The position numbers and the translations under genes are program-made. A DNA stretch of 23,310 nt, from NCBI GenBank assembly GCA_900769845.1, contig CAAGIF010000216.1, positions 1 through 23,310 of the forward strand, written 5' to 3'. Shown piece after piece: positions 11,602-18,160 of this stretch; position 1 is the stretch's first letter, and each line of letters opens with the position of its first letter. The notes below the pieces were generated by a model. It did not search any database and had not been told where the DNA came from. It saw nothing but the letters and a program-made list of their open reading frames with translations. This DNA comes from an uncultured Oscillospiraceae bacterium. GTDB lineage: Bacteria; Bacillota_A; Clostridia; Oscillospirales; Oscillospiraceae.

Positions 11602-12309
11602 TCAGCCGCCAAGATACGCCTTTCTGACTTCGTCAGACCGGGATAGTTCCAGACCGGTTCCGGACAGGGTAACATTACCCGTTTCCAGAACATAGGCCCG
11701 ATCTGCAAGCTGCAAGGCTTTGCTTGCATTTTGTTCCACCAGCAAAATAGTCGTGCCGTCAGCATGCAACTGCTTGATAATATCAAATATCTGATCCACC
11801 AGAATGGGCGCAAGACCCATGGAAGGCTCGTCCAGCATCATCAGCTTGGGATGGCTCATCAGCGCCCGGCTCATAGCCAGCATCTGTTGCTCACCGCCGG
11901 ATAGCGTGCCGGCAATCTGTTTTCTGCGTTCCTTCAGCCGGGGAAAATAGGAAAATACCCGATCAAGGTCTGCCTGGGACACATCCTTGCGGATATAGGC
12001 GCCCATCTCCAGGTTTTCCTGGACAGACATTTGCAGGAAGATTCTTCTGCCTTCCGGAACATGGGCAAGGCCGTGGCGAAGAAGTTTGTATGCATCCGAA
12101 TGGGTGATATCCTGTCCCATAAATTGGATCTTACCGCTGCGGGGATGCATCAAACCAGAAACGGTTTTTAGAATCGTGCTCTTACCTGCGCCGTTGGCGC
12201 CGATCAAGGCAACGATTTCGCCCTCATGCACCTCAAAGGAAACCCCCTTGATGGCATGGATCGCACCGTAGTACACATGGATGTCCTCTATTTTCAGCAT
12301 CACAGCCAT
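11602..12309 (-). CDS. livF: Branched-chain amino-acid ABC transporter ATP-binding protein LivF
   Basis: This roughly 235-aa ATPase is one of the two nucleotide-binding subunits of the LivJHMGF importer at the inner face of the membrane. Walker A is GANGAGKST (about residues 37-45), the signature is LSGGEQQM and Walker B is LMMLDEPSMGL. The ATG at 12309 overlaps the livG stop (TGATG), but its GGAG is only 3 nt away; GTG at 12303 and ATG at 12300 (MLKIED, the commonest LivF start) have better spacing. Last gene of the operon; the terminator follows. Confidence 0.95.
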   Translation of the reverse strand: MAVMLKIEDIHVYYGAIHAIKGVSFEVHEGEIVALIGANGAGKSTILKTVSGLMHPRSGKIQFMGQDITHSDAYKLLRHGLAHVPEGRRIFLQMSVQENLEMGAYIRKDVSQADLDRVFSYFPRLKERRKQIAGTLSGGEQQMLAMSRALMSHPKLMMLDEPSMGLAPILVDQIFDIIKQLHADGTTILLVEQNASKALQLADRAYVLETGNVTLSGTGLELSRSDEVRKAYLGG

Positions 12310-13142
12310 CAACTCCTTCCCAAATATGCTTCAATAACCGCGGGATTGTTCTTGATCTCCTCCGGTGTGCCCTTGGCAATAATCTTACCGTAATTGACAA
12401 CAACAATACCTTCGCAGACATTCATAACCAGGTTCATATCATGCTCGATAAGGAAGATGGCGATCTGAAAAGTATCCCGAATCCGACGGATCTGATGCAT
12501 CAATTCCGTTGTTTCACTGGGATTCATGCCCGCTGCCGGCTCATCCAGCAAAATAATTGCAGGATTGGAGGCCAGCGCTCTACATATCTCCAGCCGGCGC
12601 TGAACGCCATAAGGCAACGATCCCGCTTTCTGATCCGCAACATCTGCAAGTCCCATAAAATCAAGCAGTTCCATCGCCTTCTGATTGGCCTTTTTTTCCG
12701 CCTTATAATATCCGGGAAGATGCAGCAGAGAGGAAATAAAGGAACATTTAATTTCGTTATGCATGCCGACCTTAACATTATCCAGCGCCGTCATCTCATT
12801 AAACAGGCGGATATTCTGAAAGGTTCTGGCAATTCCCATTTTATTGACCTTGGAGGTGGTCATGCCCTTGGTATCGATGCCCTTGAGCAGAATGGAACCC
12901 CGGGTGGGCTGGTACACACTGGTCAAAAGATTAAAAATGGTGGTCTTGCCGGCGCCGTTAGGGCCGATCAATCCGGAAATCTCCGTGGGACCGATGGTCA
13001 TTTCAAAACCGTCCACCGCAGTCAATCCGCCGAAATCAATACCAAGATTTCGCACATCCAGCACCGGCGGCTTATCAATATCCTGTTCCCGAAGGTAGTT
13101 TGTGCTGGAGACCTTAATAAGTTTTCTGGAATATTCATTCAT
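12309..13142 (-). CDS. livG: Branched-chain amino-acid ABC transporter ATP-binding protein LivG
   Basis: The 277-aa protein is the second ATPase of the liv importer. Walker A is GPNGAGKTT (about residues 77-85), followed by the LivG-type IARTFQNIRLF, a signature LPYGVQRRLEI in place of LSGGQ (normal for LivG) and Walker B IILLDEPAAGM. The C-terminal NYGKIIAKGTPEEIKNNPAVIEAYLG is typical. An N-terminal extension of about 25 residues precedes the ABC core. AAAGGAGG lies before the ATG. It starts 5 nt after the livM stop. Confidence 0.95.
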   Translation of the reverse strand: MNEYSRKLIKVSSTNYLREQDIDKPPVLDVRNLGIDFGGLTAVDGFEMTIGPTEISGLIGPNGAGKTTIFNLLTSVYQPTRGSILLKGIDTKGMTTSKVNKMGIARTFQNIRLFNEMTALDNVKVGMHNEIKCSFISSLLHLPGYYKAEKKANQKAMELLDFMGLADVADQKAGSLPYGVQRRLEICRALASNPAIILLDEPAAGMNPSETTELMHQIRRIRDTFQIAIFLIEHDMNLVMNVCEGIVVVNYGKIIAKGTPEEIKNNPAVIEAYLGRS

Positions 13143-13147
13143 AACCC

Positions 13148-14212
13148 TCAGGCCTCCTTTCTCGTCACACGGAACTTATCCTTAACAGCAGCAACAATAC
13201 GGTCCATAAACCCCTTGCAGGCAGGACTCCATGTAAACAGCATAACAACAATCAGCACCACAGCATACAGTATCATTCGATAGTCCGCAAGGAAACGCAT
13301 TGCCTCCGGCAGGACATACAGTACCGTGGCGGAAATAACGGAACCGAGAATATTGCCCATTCCGCCCAGAACCACAAAAACAAGAATATCGATAGAGGTA
13401 GTAAATCCGAATTTGCTTGCAGCAACCGCAGAATAATTCAACCCATACAGTGCTCCTGCCATCCCCGCCAAAAATGCAGATACCACAAACGCCTTCAGCC
13501 GGTATGCCGTAATGGGAATACCCACAGATTCTGCGGCAATCCGGTTATCCCGGATAGATTTGATGGCTCTGCCTTCCTTGGAATTGATTAGATTCAGCAC
13601 CACAAAGAGTGTGAAAAGGATCAGAAGAAAACCAGCAAAAAATGTGGAGATTCTCTGAATACCCGTTGCTCCCAGCGCGCCGCTGAGAATCATTTTCCCG
13701 TCTGCCTCCAGATGAAGCTCGGTCTGACTCAGGGCAACACGCAGGCCGGTGGAATCTTTGCCGATGTAGAGATTGCCCACAATATTCTTAAGGATCTCGC
13801 CGAAAGCCAGTGTCACAATGGCGAGATAGTCACCACGAAGCCGCAGTACAGGAATGCCGACCACAAAACCTGCAATACCTGCCACGATACCGCCCACAAA
13901 GAGGGCTGCGACCAAGCGAAGGAAATCCTGTTCCAAAGCACCCTGCAGACACGCAGCGGTGACGATTCCCGCAAAAGCGCCCACGCCCATGAACCCTGCG
14001 TGACCAAGACTCAGTTCGCCGGAAATACCAACCACAAGGTTCAAGGAAACCGCCAGAACTATGTAGGAACAGATTGGGATCAGGTATCCGTTTACACTGC
14101 GGGAAAGCATACCGGCATTGGAAAGGCTCTGCATGACAAGATAGCCAACAATTACAAGGCCATAGGTTGCAAGATTTATGCCGTGGATTTTCATATATCT
14201 TTTAAACCGCAT
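13148..14212 (-). CDS. livM: Branched-chain amino-acid ABC permease LivM
   Basis: This 354-aa integral membrane protein is the LivM permease. It has about eight to ten hydrophobic segments and the family block LVVGISGELSLGHAGFMGVGAFAG (about residues 59-82). The later conserved LRLRGDYLAIVTLAFGEI and GGMGNILGSV are also visible. It starts 9 nt before the end of livH, with AAGGTG as ribosome site. It pairs with LivH to form the pore. A C-terminal cytoplasmic tail is rich in Lys and Arg. Confidence 0.95.
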   Translation of the reverse strand: MRFKRYMKIHGINLATYGLVIVGYLVMQSLSNAGMLSRSVNGYLIPICSYIVLAVSLNLVVGISGELSLGHAGFMGVGAFAGIVTAACLQGALEQDFLRLVAALFVGGIVAGIAGFVVGIPVLRLRGDYLAIVTLAFGEILKNIVGNLYIGKDSTGLRVALSQTELHLEADGKMILSGALGATGIQRISTFFAGFLLILFTLFVVLNLINSKEGRAIKSIRDNRIAAESVGIPITAYRLKAFVVSAFLAGMAGALYGLNYSAVAASKFGFTTSIDILVFVVLGGMGNILGSVISATVLYVLPEAMRFLADYRMILYAVVLIVVMLFTWSPACKGFMDRIVAAVKDKFRVTRKEA

Positions 14213-14221
14213 ACCTTCACC

Positions 14222-15103
14222 TTACACTTTCTCCTGAACGACCTTACCCATAAGGCCGGCAGGTTTGACCAAAAGCACAATGACCAGCACAAGGAATACG
14301 ATGGCATCGCTGAACTGTGTGGATAGATAGGCTTTGGTCATGGTCTCAATAACACCAAGCAAAATACCTCCCAGCATGGCGCCGGGAATGGAACCGATGC
14401 CGCCAAAAACCGCCGCTGTAAAGGCGCGGATACCGGGCATGGAACCGGTGGTGGGCTGAAGGGTAGGAACTGTGGAGCACAGAAGCACGCCGGCAATGGC
14501 GGCCAAGGCCGAACCGATGGCAAAGGTCATGGAAATCGTCCGATTCACATGAATGCCCATCAGCTGTGCAGCATCCCGATCCTCAGAAACAGCCCGCATA
14601 GCTTTTCCCATCTTGGTTTTTCCGGTAAACAGGGTCAGAGCTGTCATAATCAGAATACTGGCTGCAATGGTTATGATCACTTCACCGGTAATGGTCAACT
14701 TATCCTGAAACAGTTTAATGGGAGCAAATCTGACAATACTGGTAAAGTTCTTGGGGGCAGAACCCCATATAAGCTGAGCAGCATTCTGAAGAAAATAGCT
14801 TACGCCAATGGCAGTAATCAAAACCGCAAGGCTGGGCGCGCCACGAAGAGGCTTATAAGCAAGACCCTCTATGAAAATACCCAGCAAAGTGCAGACGATC
14901 ACGGCAATTCCGATTCCTGCAACAGCGGGCAGCCCCAAATACTGGGTAGCTGAGAAAGACATATACGCGCCCACCATGATAATATCGCCATGGGCGAAGT
15001 TCAGCATTTTGGCAATGCCGTAAACCATGGTATAACCCAATGCGATGATGGCATATACAGCGCCTATACTGATTCCGTTGATCAAGTATTGAAGAAACTC
15101 CAT
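14222..15103 (-). CDS. livH: Branched-chain amino-acid ABC permease LivH
   Basis: The 293-aa permease is LivH. It opens with the family sequence INGISIGAVYAIIALGYTMVYGIAKMLNFAHGD (about residues 9-41) and carries RAVSEDRDAAQLMGIHVNRTI, the cytoplasmic coupling loop contacting the ATPase. Around eight membrane segments are seen. GAGGGAAG precedes the ATG. A 151-bp gap with stem-loops separates it from livJ, which probably lets the binding protein be made in excess. Confidence 0.95.
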   Translation of the reverse strand: MEFLQYLINGISIGAVYAIIALGYTMVYGIAKMLNFAHGDIIMVGAYMSFSATQYLGLPAVAGIGIAVIVCTLLGIFIEGLAYKPLRGAPSLAVLITAIGVSYFLQNAAQLIWGSAPKNFTSIVRFAPIKLFQDKLTITGEVIITIAASILIMTALTLFTGKTKMGKAMRAVSEDRDAAQLMGIHVNRTISMTFAIGSALAAIAGVLLCSTVPTLQPTTGSMPGIRAFTAAVFGGIGSIPGAMLGGILLGVIETMTKAYLSTQFSDAIVFLVLVIVLLVKPAGLMGKVVQEKV

Positions 15104-15254: not shown

Positions 15255-16412
15255 TTATTCCACGCCAACATAGACGCCGTTCTCGATCTTAACAGCCATG
15301 GGCAGCTTGGAAACAGCGCCGTCAGTGCCCCAGGTCATGCCTGCGCCGGTCAGACCGTCAAAGCTCATGGACAGGATCTGTTCTGTCATGATCTGGCAGA
15401 TCTGCTCGGCGGTCATATCCGCAGTCACACCGCCGTCCGTGCAAGCCTTGTAGATCACATATGCCACATCATATGCGTCAGCAGCAAACTGGTTGGGAGC
15501 GATGCCGTACTTTTCGGTATATTTCTTGACAAATTCCTGGGTAGCAGTATCCTCTGCGGTGGCATCAAAGGGAGTCAGCAGCATAACGCCTTCTGCCAGT
15601 TCTGCATGAAAGCCTTCAGTGGTCAGAATGCCGTCCAGACCGTCACAGCCAAAGAAAATGGGGCTGTAACCGATCTTATCCGCGCAGGTCAGAATCTGAG
15701 AAGCCTCAGCCGCATAAATGGGCAGGAACACCACATCACAACCTGCAGCCTGGCACTTGGTAACCTGGGTGGACAAGTCAGCCTTGTTATCGGCGGTAAA
15801 GGCTTCGGTAGCAACCACTTCCAGGCCCAGCTCCGTCGCCTTTGCCATGAAATTGGTGAAAATACCGTTGGAATAAGGGGAAGAAGAATCGTAGATCACG
15901 CCAACCTTGGTGCCCAGCTTATGGGAGAAAATGTAGTCGGCAGAACCGACGCCCTGGTTAAAGTCCGTGAAGCAGATCTGGAAAACATTATCGCCTGCAA
16001 CAATGACATTGGGGTCTGATGCGGAAGGTGTCAGCATGAACACCTTATCATTGGCGCATTCAGCCGCGGTAGCCAGAGCAGAGCCGGAGGTAACAGGGCC
16101 CGCCATAATCTGCATACCCCAGTCCATCAGGGTATTATAGGCATTCACTGCCAGTTCGCTGTCTGCTTCGTCATCTTCTGCCCGGACTTCAAACTGCAGA
16201 CCGCCCAGAGCATTGATTTCCTCAAACGCCAGCTTCAGGCCGTATTCCACAGCCTTGCCGTACACAGCATAGTCGTTGGTCAGAGGACCGCTGGTACCGA
16301 TTTTAATTACATTAGAAGCAGAGGACCCGGAGGGATCACCCTCACCGGCGCAGCCGGCAAACAGAGATACTGTCATCAGAACAGCAATGAGGATCGCAAA
16401 TACCTTTTTCAT
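15255..16412 (-). CDS. livJ: Branched-chain amino-acid ABC transporter substrate-binding lipoprotein
   Basis: This 385-aa protein is the extracellular receptor of the importer. A lipoprotein signal (KKVFAILIAVLMTVS then LFAGC, acylated Cys20) is followed by a Gly/Ser-rich linker and the Peripla_BP_6 fold starting IKIGTSGPLTNDYAVYGKAVEYGLKLAFEEINA. The leucine-type ligand site motifs GPVTSGSALATAAE and TPSASDP are present. Length is normal. AAGGAG lies 8 nt before the ATG. It is first in the operon, behind a leader ORF and attenuator-like hairpins. The exact ligand (Leu/Ile/Val or another amide or amino acid) is inferred from the operon. Confidence 0.95.
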   Translation of the reverse strand: MKKVFAILIAVLMTVSLFAGCAGEGDPSGSSASNVIKIGTSGPLTNDYAVYGKAVEYGLKLAFEEINALGGLQFEVRAEDDEADSELAVNAYNTLMDWGMQIMAGPVTSGSALATAAECANDKVFMLTPSASDPNVIVAGDNVFQICFTDFNQGVGSADYIFSHKLGTKVGVIYDSSSPYSNGIFTNFMAKATELGLEVVATEAFTADNKADLSTQVTKCQAAGCDVVFLPIYAAEASQILTCADKIGYSPIFFGCDGLDGILTTEGFHAELAEGVMLLTPFDATAEDTATQEFVKKYTEKYGIAPNQFAADAYDVAYVIYKACTDGGVTADMTAEQICQIMTEQILSMSFDGLTGAGMTWGTDGAVSKLPMAVKIENGVYVGVE

Positions 16413-16447
16413 AAAACATTCTCCTTTTTCGTTTTCACTCAGATTAT

Positions 16448-16504
16448 AAAAAAGCGGCTGCGTCTAACGCAGCCGTTCTTCCATACATAAGAATCGGTCT
16501 GCGT
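16448..16504 (-). promoter_or_regulatory. Mutually exclusive antiterminator and terminator before livJ
   Basis: On the minus strand a terminator pairs CGGCTGCGT (16467-16475) with ACGCAGCCG (16455-16463), loop of 3 nt, then C and TTTTTT (16448-16453). The upstream segment ACGCAGaCCGaTTCTT (16489-16504) can instead pair with AAGAACGGCTGCGT (16467-16480), giving a 14-bp hairpin with two single A bulges and an 8-nt loop. Both use 16467-16475, so only one can form. The left arm starts inside the stop codon of the 52-aa ORF. The structure suggests attenuation of livJHMGF. Confidence 0.65.
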
Positions 16505-16662
16505 CAAAAAGTCCACAGTCGCAGAATCATCAGGCAAACAGAAATGGACACTGCGAAAACAGCAGTGTCCATTACAAGAGCAAAACGGGCAGAGGTAGTC
16601 GCTGCTGCAGAAGCTGTGCAGCAGAAAGAAGACTGATGGTTGTAGCTTTTCCGTGCAGTCAT
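16504..16662 (-). CDS. 52-aa leader ORF upstream of livJ
   Basis: GGGAGGT lies 7 nt before the ATG, and the ORF starts about 22 nt from the expected transcription start. The peptide begins MTARKSYNHQ, contains a Ser/Ala/Thr/Cys-rich middle, and ends with a hydrophobic run in which V, L, I, L and L occur in the last 11 residues (VCLMILRLWTF). Two strong hairpins lie in its coding RNA: 16544-16572 (11 bp, loop 7) and 16602-16624 (8 bp, loop 7). The context fits a leader peptide sensing branched-chain aminoacyl-tRNA, but a small membrane protein is an alternative. The unusual length for a leader, and hairpins inside the ORF, leave doubt. Confidence 0.6.
   Translation of the reverse strand: MTARKSYNHQSSFCCTASAAATTSARFALVMDTAVFAVSISVCLMILRLWTF
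16544..16572 (-). repeat. 11-bp hairpin within the leader ORF
   Basis: Perfect inverted arms atggacactgc (16544-16554) and gcagtgtccat (16562-16572) flank a 7-nt loop. On the minus strand the 3' arm TGTCCAT can also pair with a downstream GTGGAC just before the ORF stop, so this stem could take part in the leader fold. Confidence 0.6.
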
Positions 16663-16690
16663 ATCTCTTACCTCCCGTGAATTTGTTCTA

Positions 16691-16719
16691 ATTGTATCTC
16701 CATTGAGAACATTTGTCAA
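16691..16719 (-). promoter_or_regulatory. Consensus promoter of the livJ leader
   Basis: On the minus strand TTGACA (16714-16719) and TACAAT (16691-16696) have a 17-bp spacer. A 6-bp inverted repeat tgttct/agaaca (16684-16689, 16706-16711) spans the spacer and start region and could be an operator. Confidence 0.85.
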
Positions 16720-16783
16720 CGAGGTAAATACACTAGAATTTAGAATTCACGGAATGTATTTTTGTACATTTTACACAAGTAAA

Positions 16784-18160
16784 TTATGATTTTCTGTCAA
16801 GAACAGATTTACACACAGCAAGGACATCCTTCAAAATCGGAACACAGGTGGCGCTTCCGTAACCGCCGTTTTCCACCACAACAATAAACGCCAGCGGATA
16901 GGCTTCATCTGCAACAAAGCCTGCGAACATGGCATTGGGGGTAAGGTCGCCGCCCAATTCACTGGTTCCGGATTTGGCGCACACAATTAGTCCCGGAAAG
17001 TTTTCTGCGCCGTAAACTGTTTCAACATTGTTACGCATGTAGTCTGTAAGGGTCTGGGCAAGCTCCTGGGACATGATCCGCTCCGAAGAAATGATATCCG
17101 CCTTGTAGGTTATCTCATCCCCCAGGCTGACCTGCTTCACAAGATATGGCTTCGCAGTCACTCCCCCTCCGGCGATCATGCCCATAAAGGTCATGTAGCG
17201 GCAGGGATTAATCATATCGGTATACTGACCGATGCCTGCCCAGCCAATCTGCACCGGAGCCGCCTTGGCAAGATCAAACTTTCCCCGGGCAGTGGTCACA
17301 CCATCGAACCGCACAGGTTCCGTGATCAGAAACTGGTTGGCATAGTCCTCCAGGTTTTCCTTTCCAACCAAATTGGCGATCTGGGTAAAGCAGCAGTTAC
17401 AGGATTTTGCCAACGCGTCTTTAAGATTCAGCGTGCCGTGAGCTTTTTCACAGGTGACCCGGTCGATGCCATAGGCATATTCCCCGGCGCAGGTGAATTT
17501 CATATCCAGAATGCCATCCACACAGTCAAGGGCAGCAGCCGTGGTAACGATCTTGAAAATAGAGCCAGGAGGATAGGTGTTCTGGACAAACCGGTTCATG
17601 TACACGCCTTCGTAGCGGCCGGTGTCATCCTTCTCGATATCCGGCACATTATCCGGGTCATAGCTGGGGCTGGTAACGGCGCAGAGGATCTCTCCGGTCT
17701 TATAATTATAAATACCTACCGTGCCCTTTCTGTCACCAAGGGCCTTGAGTGCCGCCGTCTGGACATCGGAGGATAAGGTAAGCTCTGCCTGTCCCTGGAT
17801 TCCATTATAAGAATAAAGTCCATTCACCCGGTCATAGCCGGTCATTTCCTTGCCGTAATGGGCAATAGCCGGGGCGCTGATTCTCCCCTGCCGGTCTCCA
17901 AGCCAGTGCAGGGTAGCCATACGGAGAGCGGGATCCTCCGAATAGACCCGGCTGTTTGTCAGATCCAGCAGAAGCTCGCCGGAGCTGTCCAGGATCTGCC
18001 CGCAGCCGATATTACTGGAATTGAAAACATGGGGCGAACCTGTTGATAAGATCCACTTTTCCGCATCCGCAACATATTCACAAAGGAAAAACACCAGACC
18101 GGAAAGCAGAGCAATCACGAGGAGCAGAATGGCGGATGCCCGCCGGGATATTCTATTCAT
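16784..18160 (-). CDS. Penicillin-binding protein (class B-like transpeptidase)
   Basis: The 458-aa protein is a peptidoglycan transpeptidase of the PbpA/FtsI-like group that partners SEDS glycosyltransferases. A single N-terminal membrane anchor (residues 10-30) is followed by a short dimerisation-type region and the transpeptidase domain. Active-site motifs are SIFK (Ser200-Lys203), SCN (253-255) and KSGT (396-399). It is shorter than classical PBP2 (about 600 aa or more), matching the PbpA type. The ATG at 18160 has GGAGGA 5 nt before it and overlaps the FHA-SEDS gene by 8 nt; a longer form to 18241 is therefore rejected. The two proteins probably act as one synthase. Confidence 0.92.
   Translation of the reverse strand: MNRISRRASAILLLVIALLSGLVFFLCEYVADAEKWILSTGSPHVFNSSNIGCGQILDSSGELLLDLTNSRVYSEDPALRMATLHWLGDRQGRISAPAIAHYGKEMTGYDRVNGLYSYNGIQGQAELTLSSDVQTAALKALGDRKGTVGIYNYKTGEILCAVTSPSYDPDNVPDIEKDDTGRYEGVYMNRFVQNTYPPGSIFKIVTTAAALDCVDGILDMKFTCAGEYAYGIDRVTCEKAHGTLNLKDALAKSCNCCFTQIANLVGKENLEDYANQFLITEPVRFDGVTTARGKFDLAKAAPVQIGWAGIGQYTDMINPCRYMTFMGMIAGGGVTAKPYLVKQVSLGDEITYKADIISSERIMSQELAQTLTDYMRNNVETVYGAENFPGLIVCAKSGTSELGGDLTPNAMFAGFVADEAYPLAFIVVVENGGYGSATCVPILKDVLAVCKSVLDRKS

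Follow-up and report, generated by a model that had tools for sequence, protein, structure and literature searches.

The liv locus and its leader

What controls transcription of the putative branched-chain amino acid importer on contig CAAGIF010000216.1 of an uncultured Oscillospiraceae bacterium? The window analysed here, which is the whole stretch of 23,310 nucleotides, carries five livJHMGF-type genes on the minus strand. Upstream of them, between the end of a penicillin-binding-protein gene with a transpeptidase domain (16784) and the start of livJ (16412), lies a leader on the same strand, for which a first-pass annotation had proposed attenuation by a translating ribosome. The five genes were assigned by their best NCBIfam match, in each case below the curated cut-off. 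Judged by homology, they probably encode an importer that would supply the amino acids the leader is proposed to sense.

15255..16412, minus strand: LivJ-type substrate-binding protein (Peripla_BP_6); best PDB matches are branched-chain amino acid binding proteins
14222..15103, minus strand: LivH-type permease; top NCBIfam family LivH, under the curated cut-off
13148..14212, minus strand: LivM-type permease; top NCBIfam family LivM, under the cut-off
12309..13142, minus strand: LivG-type ATPase; top NCBIfam family LivG, under the cut-off
11602..12312, minus strand: LivF-type ATPase; top NCBIfam family LivF, under the cut-off

The leader begins with a promoter, a Shine-Dalgarno (SD) sequence and a short open reading frame (ORF).

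16691..16719, minus strand: sigma-70-type promoter TTGACA-17-TACAAT; from promoter prediction
16669..16676, minus strand: leader SD with 3' flank (GGGAGGTA), the SD GGGAGG being 16676-16671; also the 5' arm of hairpin P1
16504..16662, minus strand: leader ORF (52 codons and a stop), MTARKSYNHQSSFCCTASAAATTSARFALVMDTAVFAVSISVCLMILRLWTF; 11 close relatives share its plan

The consensus promoter claimed in the first-pass annotation was recovered with 11 of 12 consensus matches, and so was the 52-codon ORF (16662-16504), which ends in V C L M I L R L W T F, 11 residues that contain the V, L, I, L, L described there. Within 16380-16820, two promoter-like sites (0.9 expected) and two terminator-like sites (0.4 expected) can be observed. 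Among 13 relatives, the promoter TTGACAAATGT..GATACAAT is exact in 11 and differs by 1-2 bases in L009 and L016. The leader RNA (16690-16410) folds better than 200 out of 200 dinucleotide shuffles, with a z-score of -4.2.

A short ORF with its own SD, predicted to be translated, thus precedes the structural genes in the window and in 11 close relatives. No known small-protein family was matched by the peptides searched: the window's peptide, searched alone against 5.8 billion proteins it found itself as the sole match, and five of the 45 leader peptides collected gave no match at cut-off in Pfam and NCBIfam. A peptide-profile search returned 38 proteins including the query, the sole informative name being 'hypothetical protein' of Oscillibacter sp. 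A plasmid collection gave no match.

Conservation in close relatives

A LivJ search of genome contigs yielded 163 relatives, of which the best 80 were kept; the upstream DNA of 12 of these, and then of L020, was read by eye. The same leader is found in L001, L002, L072, L006-L010, L016 and L020, and in L111 from a later search; together with the window they form a close group of 12 leaders (L161 and L162 are from the same genomes as L001 and L111, respectively). These relatives are metagenome-assembled genomes titled Oscillospiraceae, Candidatus Faecousia, Bacillota or uncultured Clostridia. By automatic criteria, nine of the 80 loci display an ORF, a hairpin within it and a terminator, and L010 was added by eye; by the same criteria no such leader is present at the remaining loci, which include Gemmiger and Lachnospiraceae.

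All 11 close relatives keep the ORF, the antiterminator P4 and terminator P5 described below, and the position of the stop codon at the 5' arm of P4. Homologous leaders with neither arms nor ORF, which the first-pass annotation had named as the observation that would speak against it, are therefore absent from this group, whereas the near relatives L003, L004 and L005 keep the promoter and lack the ORF. At these three loci (about 4840-4975 in L003 and L005, about 4870-4990 in L004) the promoter is very similar, and L003 and L005 also carry a terminator-like hairpin.

Antiterminator and terminator

Two mutually exclusive hairpins can be formed at the end of the leader.

16489..16506, minus strand: 5' arm of P4 (antiterminator), starting in the stop codon; duplex computation
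16465..16480, minus strand: 3' arm of P4, overlapping the 5' arm of P5; duplex computation
16448..16475, minus strand: P5, intrinsic terminator; stem-loop (stem 16475-16455) with T6 tract (16453-16448)

P4 starts at 16506, within the TGA stop codon (16506-16504), and has 16475-16467 in common with the stem of P5, in agreement with the competing hairpins, the overlap with the stop codon and the T6 terminator of the first-pass annotation. Its estimate of the antiterminator has to be amended in one respect: the two unpaired A residues (A16498 and A16494) are confirmed, but the computed duplex contains 16 pairs instead of 14. With -20.7 kcal/mol this duplex is more stable than any found in 200 shuffles of the upstream region (mean -12.2 kcal/mol). 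The distance from the end of the stop codon to the start of the P4 5' arm is -8 to +5 nucleotides in all 12 close leaders. For 10 non-redundant close leaders the combined P4 value against dinucleotide shuffles is p 7e-8; the evidence is comparative throughout, and since the leaders share ancestry this and the other pooled p-values given here overstate independence.

The arms of both hairpins covary in the close relatives. When arms were swapped between species, the mean energy rose from -15.2 to -11.8 kcal/mol for P4 and from -17.4 to -12.7 kcal/mol for P5, with none of 20000 permutations as good in either case, and a leader's own arms surpassed the swap mean in 10 of 10 leaders for both hairpins.

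The effect of a ribosome was computed by folding the RNA up to the P5 loop, with the ribosome masking 13 nucleotides ahead, and expressed as a P4 pairing index, whose scaling to the P5 stem lets it exceed 1. Placing the ribosome on the stop codon abolishes P4 (index 0-0.23) in every close leader but L009 (0.69), hence in 11 of 12. With the ribosome at Leu/Ile/Val codons at least five before the stop (the last nine such codons of each leader), the index amounts to 0.55-1.09, and with no ribosome it is 0.61-1.08 in 11 of 12 leaders and 0.08 in L020. The computation thus bears out both halves of the earlier proposal, that a finishing ribosome masks the antiterminator and that one stalled upstream leaves it free. 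For the full transcript at equilibrium, with a ribosome ten codons before the stop, P5 dominates in 8 of the 12 close leaders. The switch therefore needs co-transcriptional kinetics, in which P4 forms first.

Outside the close group P4 is less distinct. Taken one by one, 11 of the 45 leaders reach p<=0.05 for it, and the 33 divergent leaders are weakly significant when pooled (p 0.004), with p>0.05 in most of them. Mutually exclusive antiterminator and terminator structures are accordingly assigned to the window and its close group.

Hairpins within the leader ORF

Three elements that had been missed in the first-pass annotation are located within or at the ORF: P2 (16624-16602), P3 (16573-16543) and a pairing of the SD with 16597-16591, here termed P1.

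16591..16597, minus strand: anti-SD (TACCTCT) within the ORF, 3' arm of P1; p 0.64 for the window alone
16602..16624, minus strand: P2 hairpin CTGCTGCA..TGCAGCAG within the ORF; from the fold, with related hairpins seen by eye in relatives
16543..16573, minus strand: P3 hairpin (GGACACTGC..GCAGTGTCC) of 12 bp within the ORF, with U-rich ATTTCTGTTT on its 3' side; either a pause hairpin or a first terminator

Pairing between the SD and the ORF's own codons gives a combined p of 4.6e-13 over 44 leaders. It reaches p 0.05 individually in 14 of them, the window not included, and the pairing site is situated at codons 11-22 in 37 of the 44; in L281 the SD matches its own ORF over 11 bp.

The arms of P3 pair much better with each other than with those of other leaders (-12.8 versus -8.3; 0 of 5000 permutations; 41 leaders), and both arms have changed at several positions between leaders. 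The assignment required an in-frame Ser codon (L169 has none, and L166 was misplaced); because it chose arms that pair, counts of unbroken pairs hold by construction. Directly 3' of P3, at least five T per 8-nucleotide stretch are found in all 32 divergent leaders and in nine of the 12 close ones, the mean being 6.4 T versus 2.8 in the rest of the same tails in divergent leaders and 5.1 versus 3.2 in close ones. The tract is also present in the four leaders of branched-chain enzyme genes described below, although weaker in L271. With this tract, P3 of the divergent relatives has the appearance of an in-ORF intrinsic terminator. The window and its close group have a weaker U-tract, and there P3 is just as likely to be a pause hairpin.

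The branched-chain attenuators of E. coli possess an early pause hairpin, and in the untranslated RNA the antiterminator strand is tied up by an early hairpin. P3, in contrast, does not overlap P4, and an early hairpin of this enterobacterial kind, which goes with superattenuation, was not found in the close group: in the computed folds of ribosome-free RNA, all 12 leaders but L020 form P4.

Leu/Ile/Val codons before the antiterminator

Between P3 and P4 lies the stretch of codons proposed to exert control.

16507..16545, minus strand: codons after P3 rich in Leu/Ile/Val (ISVCLMILRLWTF), the proposed control codons; from codon counts

In 39 leaders, Leu, Ile and Val account for 470 of 1042 in-frame codons (45%) after P3, compared with 18% and 10% in the other two frames and 180 of 1368 codons (13%) in frame before P3. 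The split was attempted for 43 leaders, of which the window, L020, L210 and L214 have no assigned P3, and it is rough for five of the 39 (L169, L230, L122, L114 and L117), in which P3 was set at another hairpin.

Positions were also counted from the point where a stalled ribosome would contact P4 (42 of the 45 leaders, three being omitted). In the 15 codons upstream of this point, Leu/Ile/Val amount to 56% in the 12 close leaders, 65% in the eight divergent leaders with P4 p<=0.1 and 53% in the other 22 divergent leaders. Beyond it the values fall to 37%, 21% and 22%, and more than 30 codons upstream to 3%, 14% and 14%, respectively. Codons for the end products are hence concentrated before the antiterminator.

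Codon choice in the tails is likewise peculiar. In the close group, Ile is encoded by ATT in 97% of 37 cases and never by ATC (background 36% and 55%), and Val by GTA in 37% of 43 cases (background 13%), the background being long frames of the same loci, some non-coding frames included. Over all leaders of the position analysis, ATT makes up 77% and ATC 12% of the Ile codons, compared with 20% and 80% in the livJ genes. The sequence CGAATT or a near variant (Arg followed by Ile or Val) recurs in the tails of L001, L006, L007, L020, L112, L113 and L115 and also in the SSAR-I head part of some close leaders; no role was found for this repeat.

Could the ORF instead code for a small membrane protein that has a function of its own and is transcribed together with livJ, with the terminator merely lowering downstream expression? 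The Leu/Ile/Val-rich tails are hydrophobic, basic residues close several of the long relatives, as is usual for small membrane proteins, and many divergent tails resemble a membrane helix with a basic end. However, hydrophobic segments of the window's LivH, LivM and FtsW-like proteins contain 38% Leu/Ile/Val and 47% Phe, Met, Trp, Ala, Gly, Tyr, Ser and Thr, whereas the tails contain 45% and 30%. The peptides, moreover, vary from 47 to 106 residues with unconserved tail sequences, and a membrane protein would leave P1, P3, P4 and the codon bias unexplained. We regard this explanation as improbable.

The confinement of the enrichment to one frame, just before P4, also weighs against a riboswitch or protein-bound RNA, in which the 5' structures would sense a metabolite and the ORF would be incidental. 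Such an element would account for the strongly covarying P3 and the recurring P2 in the 5' half, but the alignment of nine leaders displays no long conserved unpaired core, and at the Rfam gathering score there is no match in the window and, in 20 related loci, none except a tmRNA elsewhere in L178. Neither the T-box nor any other Rfam covariance model matched the leader, and a riboswitch is very unlikely. The tmRNA gene (RF00023) occupies positions 3685-4032 of L178, close to the livJ gene.

Proposed mechanism

The anatomy of the leader, its conservation and covariation, the placement of the codons, the computed masking and the association with genes for branched-chain amino acids together argue that it is, with high probability, a ribosome-mediated transcription attenuator sensing charged Leu, Ile and Val tRNA; we infer that the ORF is translated, that ribosomes stall within it and that termination changes with amino acid supply. 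In this mechanism a ribosome would bind the leader SD and trail RNA polymerase. With ample Leu, Ile and Val it would reach the stop codon and cover the 5' arm of P4, P5 would form and transcription would terminate before livJ. With these amino acids scarce, the ribosome would stall in the codon run between P3 and P4, P4 would form in place of P5, and livJHMGF would be transcribed. Arrest of the nascent peptide at or near the stop codon, in place of codon-by-codon stalling, is scarcely credible as the setting of the switch, since the last residues are unconserved, even if some tail residues recur (Arg followed by Ile, Leu or Val; VRIILP in L112, L113 and L115), and arrest at the stop would favour P5 instead of read-through.

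The roles of P1, P2 and P3 within the attenuator are less certain and are deduced from their positions and pairing. P1, by which the SD sequesters itself, and P3 with its U-tract may hold ribosome and polymerase in step and may end transcripts that no ribosome has entered; such a checkpoint is proposed because P4 would otherwise form by default without a ribosome. In the more elaborate version of this idea, the leader is a tandem-terminator attenuator, in which P3 is a first terminator before the Leu/Ile/Val codons, P5 a second, and the SD is sequestered by the ORF's own codons. P3 would be passed only with a ribosome that loads early and follows closely, and P5 only if this ribosome starves for Leu, Ile or Val. 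We put this version forward tentatively, as a possibility somewhat short of probable. If it is true, the RNA works as an AND gate that requires both available ribosomes and a shortage of branched-chain amino acids, and does so in several lineages of Clostridia, covering genes for import as well as enzyme genes.

Comparison with known attenuators

Attenuators of this kind are already known, Gram-positive bacteria included. Ribosome-mediated attenuators for branched-chain amino acids have been studied experimentally at the ilv genes of Staphylococcus aureus (PMC5794164) and Listeria monocytogenes (PMC5864092), and according to these papers and a review (PMC6123439) they are also predicted in L. 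lactis, Streptococcus and Corynebacterium. The first-pass annotation, which considered this type of regulation unusual for Firmicutes, is therefore too strong on this point and only partly right. A search of open-access papers, which leave out most subscription journals, found no report of such an attenuator for a liv importer or in Oscillospiraceae.

The closest parallel is Rli60 of the ilv-leu operon of L. monocytogenes, which combines a short ORF of branched-chain codons with overlapping antiterminator and terminator before a branched-chain operon in a Gram-positive host (PMC5864092). As described in the available sections, its peptide has 13 amino acids and its operon is biosynthetic instead of encoding an importer; start-codon and SD mutants are superattenuated, with reduced expression, whereas in the window's leader P4 would form even if no ribosome loads, and those sections mention no terminator within the ORF. 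The ilvD leader of S. aureus likewise has a Leu-rich attenuator peptide and a predicted terminator and antiterminator in a Gram-positive host, but, in the portion of PMC5794164 consulted, controls biosynthesis and is combined with CodY. A leader ORF of branched-chain codons with antiterminator and terminator is also shared with ilvGMEDA, ilvBN and leuABCD of E. coli, as outlined in part of PMC6123439. An intrinsic terminator within the leader coding region, with ABC transporter genes downstream, is found in the bmrB leader of Bacillus subtilis (excerpts of PMC4191407), which is antibiotic-responsive, precedes exporter genes and has one terminator, while the window's leader has a second terminator after the ORF and Leu/Ile/Val codons.

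The leader suggests another solution for the untranslated state: a terminator inside the leader ORF in place of a hairpin that sequesters the antiterminator. It also provides a testable sensor of branched-chain amino acids for mostly uncultured gut Clostridia.

Distribution of the leader

A covariance model (R1) built from 11 leaders was searched in 20 genomes and gave 10 strong matches, never more than one per genome, all of them livJ leaders already found; of its weak matches there, L101 and L091 are not leaders. In 400 genomes of the family of G001, R1 matched 27 at E<=1e-4 (28 matches, three strong). Sixteen of the 28 were read, of which 12 are leaders before LivJ-type genes; on reading, L119, L120, L121 and L125 turned out to be of another kind. 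A profile of 22 leader peptides matched 24 of 400 family genomes, and 22 of the 24 matches precede a LivJ-type gene. The other two were discarded as weak: L157 lies inside LivJ, and L160 has no LivJ-type gene after it.

For a less biased census, LivJ was searched at E<=1e-60 in 200 genomes of the family and found in 96, at 97 places, of which 95 were usable (G128 and G101 have no usable start). By strict criteria 27 of the 95 livJ-type genes are preceded by the leader and 68 are not, so that it is common yet far from universal in the family. The 27 include two members of the close group, G001 and G155. The automatic count was 32, from which G042, G202, G138, G098 and G165 were removed because the ORF is the end of the upstream gene, which we take from its sequence to be a short-chain dehydrogenase. 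Six further genomes, G217, G114, G181, G108, G179 and G100, are leader-like by eye, and the leaders of the first two (L203 and L180) belong to the 45-leader test set. Some LivJ genes without this leader have short leaders. At L177, L184, L186 and L187, a leaderless livJ has a palindromic promoter region (GTTGACAAT..AT(T)GTCAAC), which suggests control by a repressor instead.

Beyond the family, a profile of 42 peptides (A3) matched 10 of 345 genomes of the order and five of 341 of the class, several being family members seen before; the weak matches L274 (not leader-like) and L270 (stops inside) were discarded. At three class-level loci (L271, L272 and L273), and at L281 among 16 genomes of G917's family, the leader precedes genes of branched-chain amino acid type. 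L271 is followed (region L275) by an amidohydrolase, a LeuA-like protein (HMGL-like and LeuA dimer domains, below NCBIfam cut-offs), an AMP-ligase fusion, a branched-chain aminotransferase and VorB of 2-ketoisovalerate oxidoreductase (VOR), the last two above cut-off, with VorB's partner subunits. After L272 (region L276) an amidohydrolase by resemblance, an aminotransferase and a VorB of the same families, both above cut-off, and an MbcS-like acyl-CoA synthetase below cut-off can be found, after L273 (region L277, where the contig ends early) an amidohydrolase by resemblance and a LeuA-like protein, and after L281 a LeuA-like gene by resemblance. Both the L275 and the L276 operon also encode an unassigned protein with a GSGKT motif; the LeuA-like protein and the AMP ligase occur in L275 only.

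The same leader is thus found on two kinds of branched-chain amino acid genes, and the enzyme genes provide independent support for what it senses. Ligase, VOR and aminotransferase could make branched-chain amino acids from branched-chain fatty acids. The L275 and L276 operons possibly serve such a synthesis from branched-chain acids, which would fit induction by a shortage of branched-chain amino acids.

One of the R1 matches of another kind, L121, carries on its reverse complement (about 1470-1700) a Phe-rich ORF of 43 codons and a terminator before a TrpX-like substrate-binding protein (ABC_sub_bind; NCBIfam TrpX below cut-off), and is perhaps an attenuator for another amino acid.
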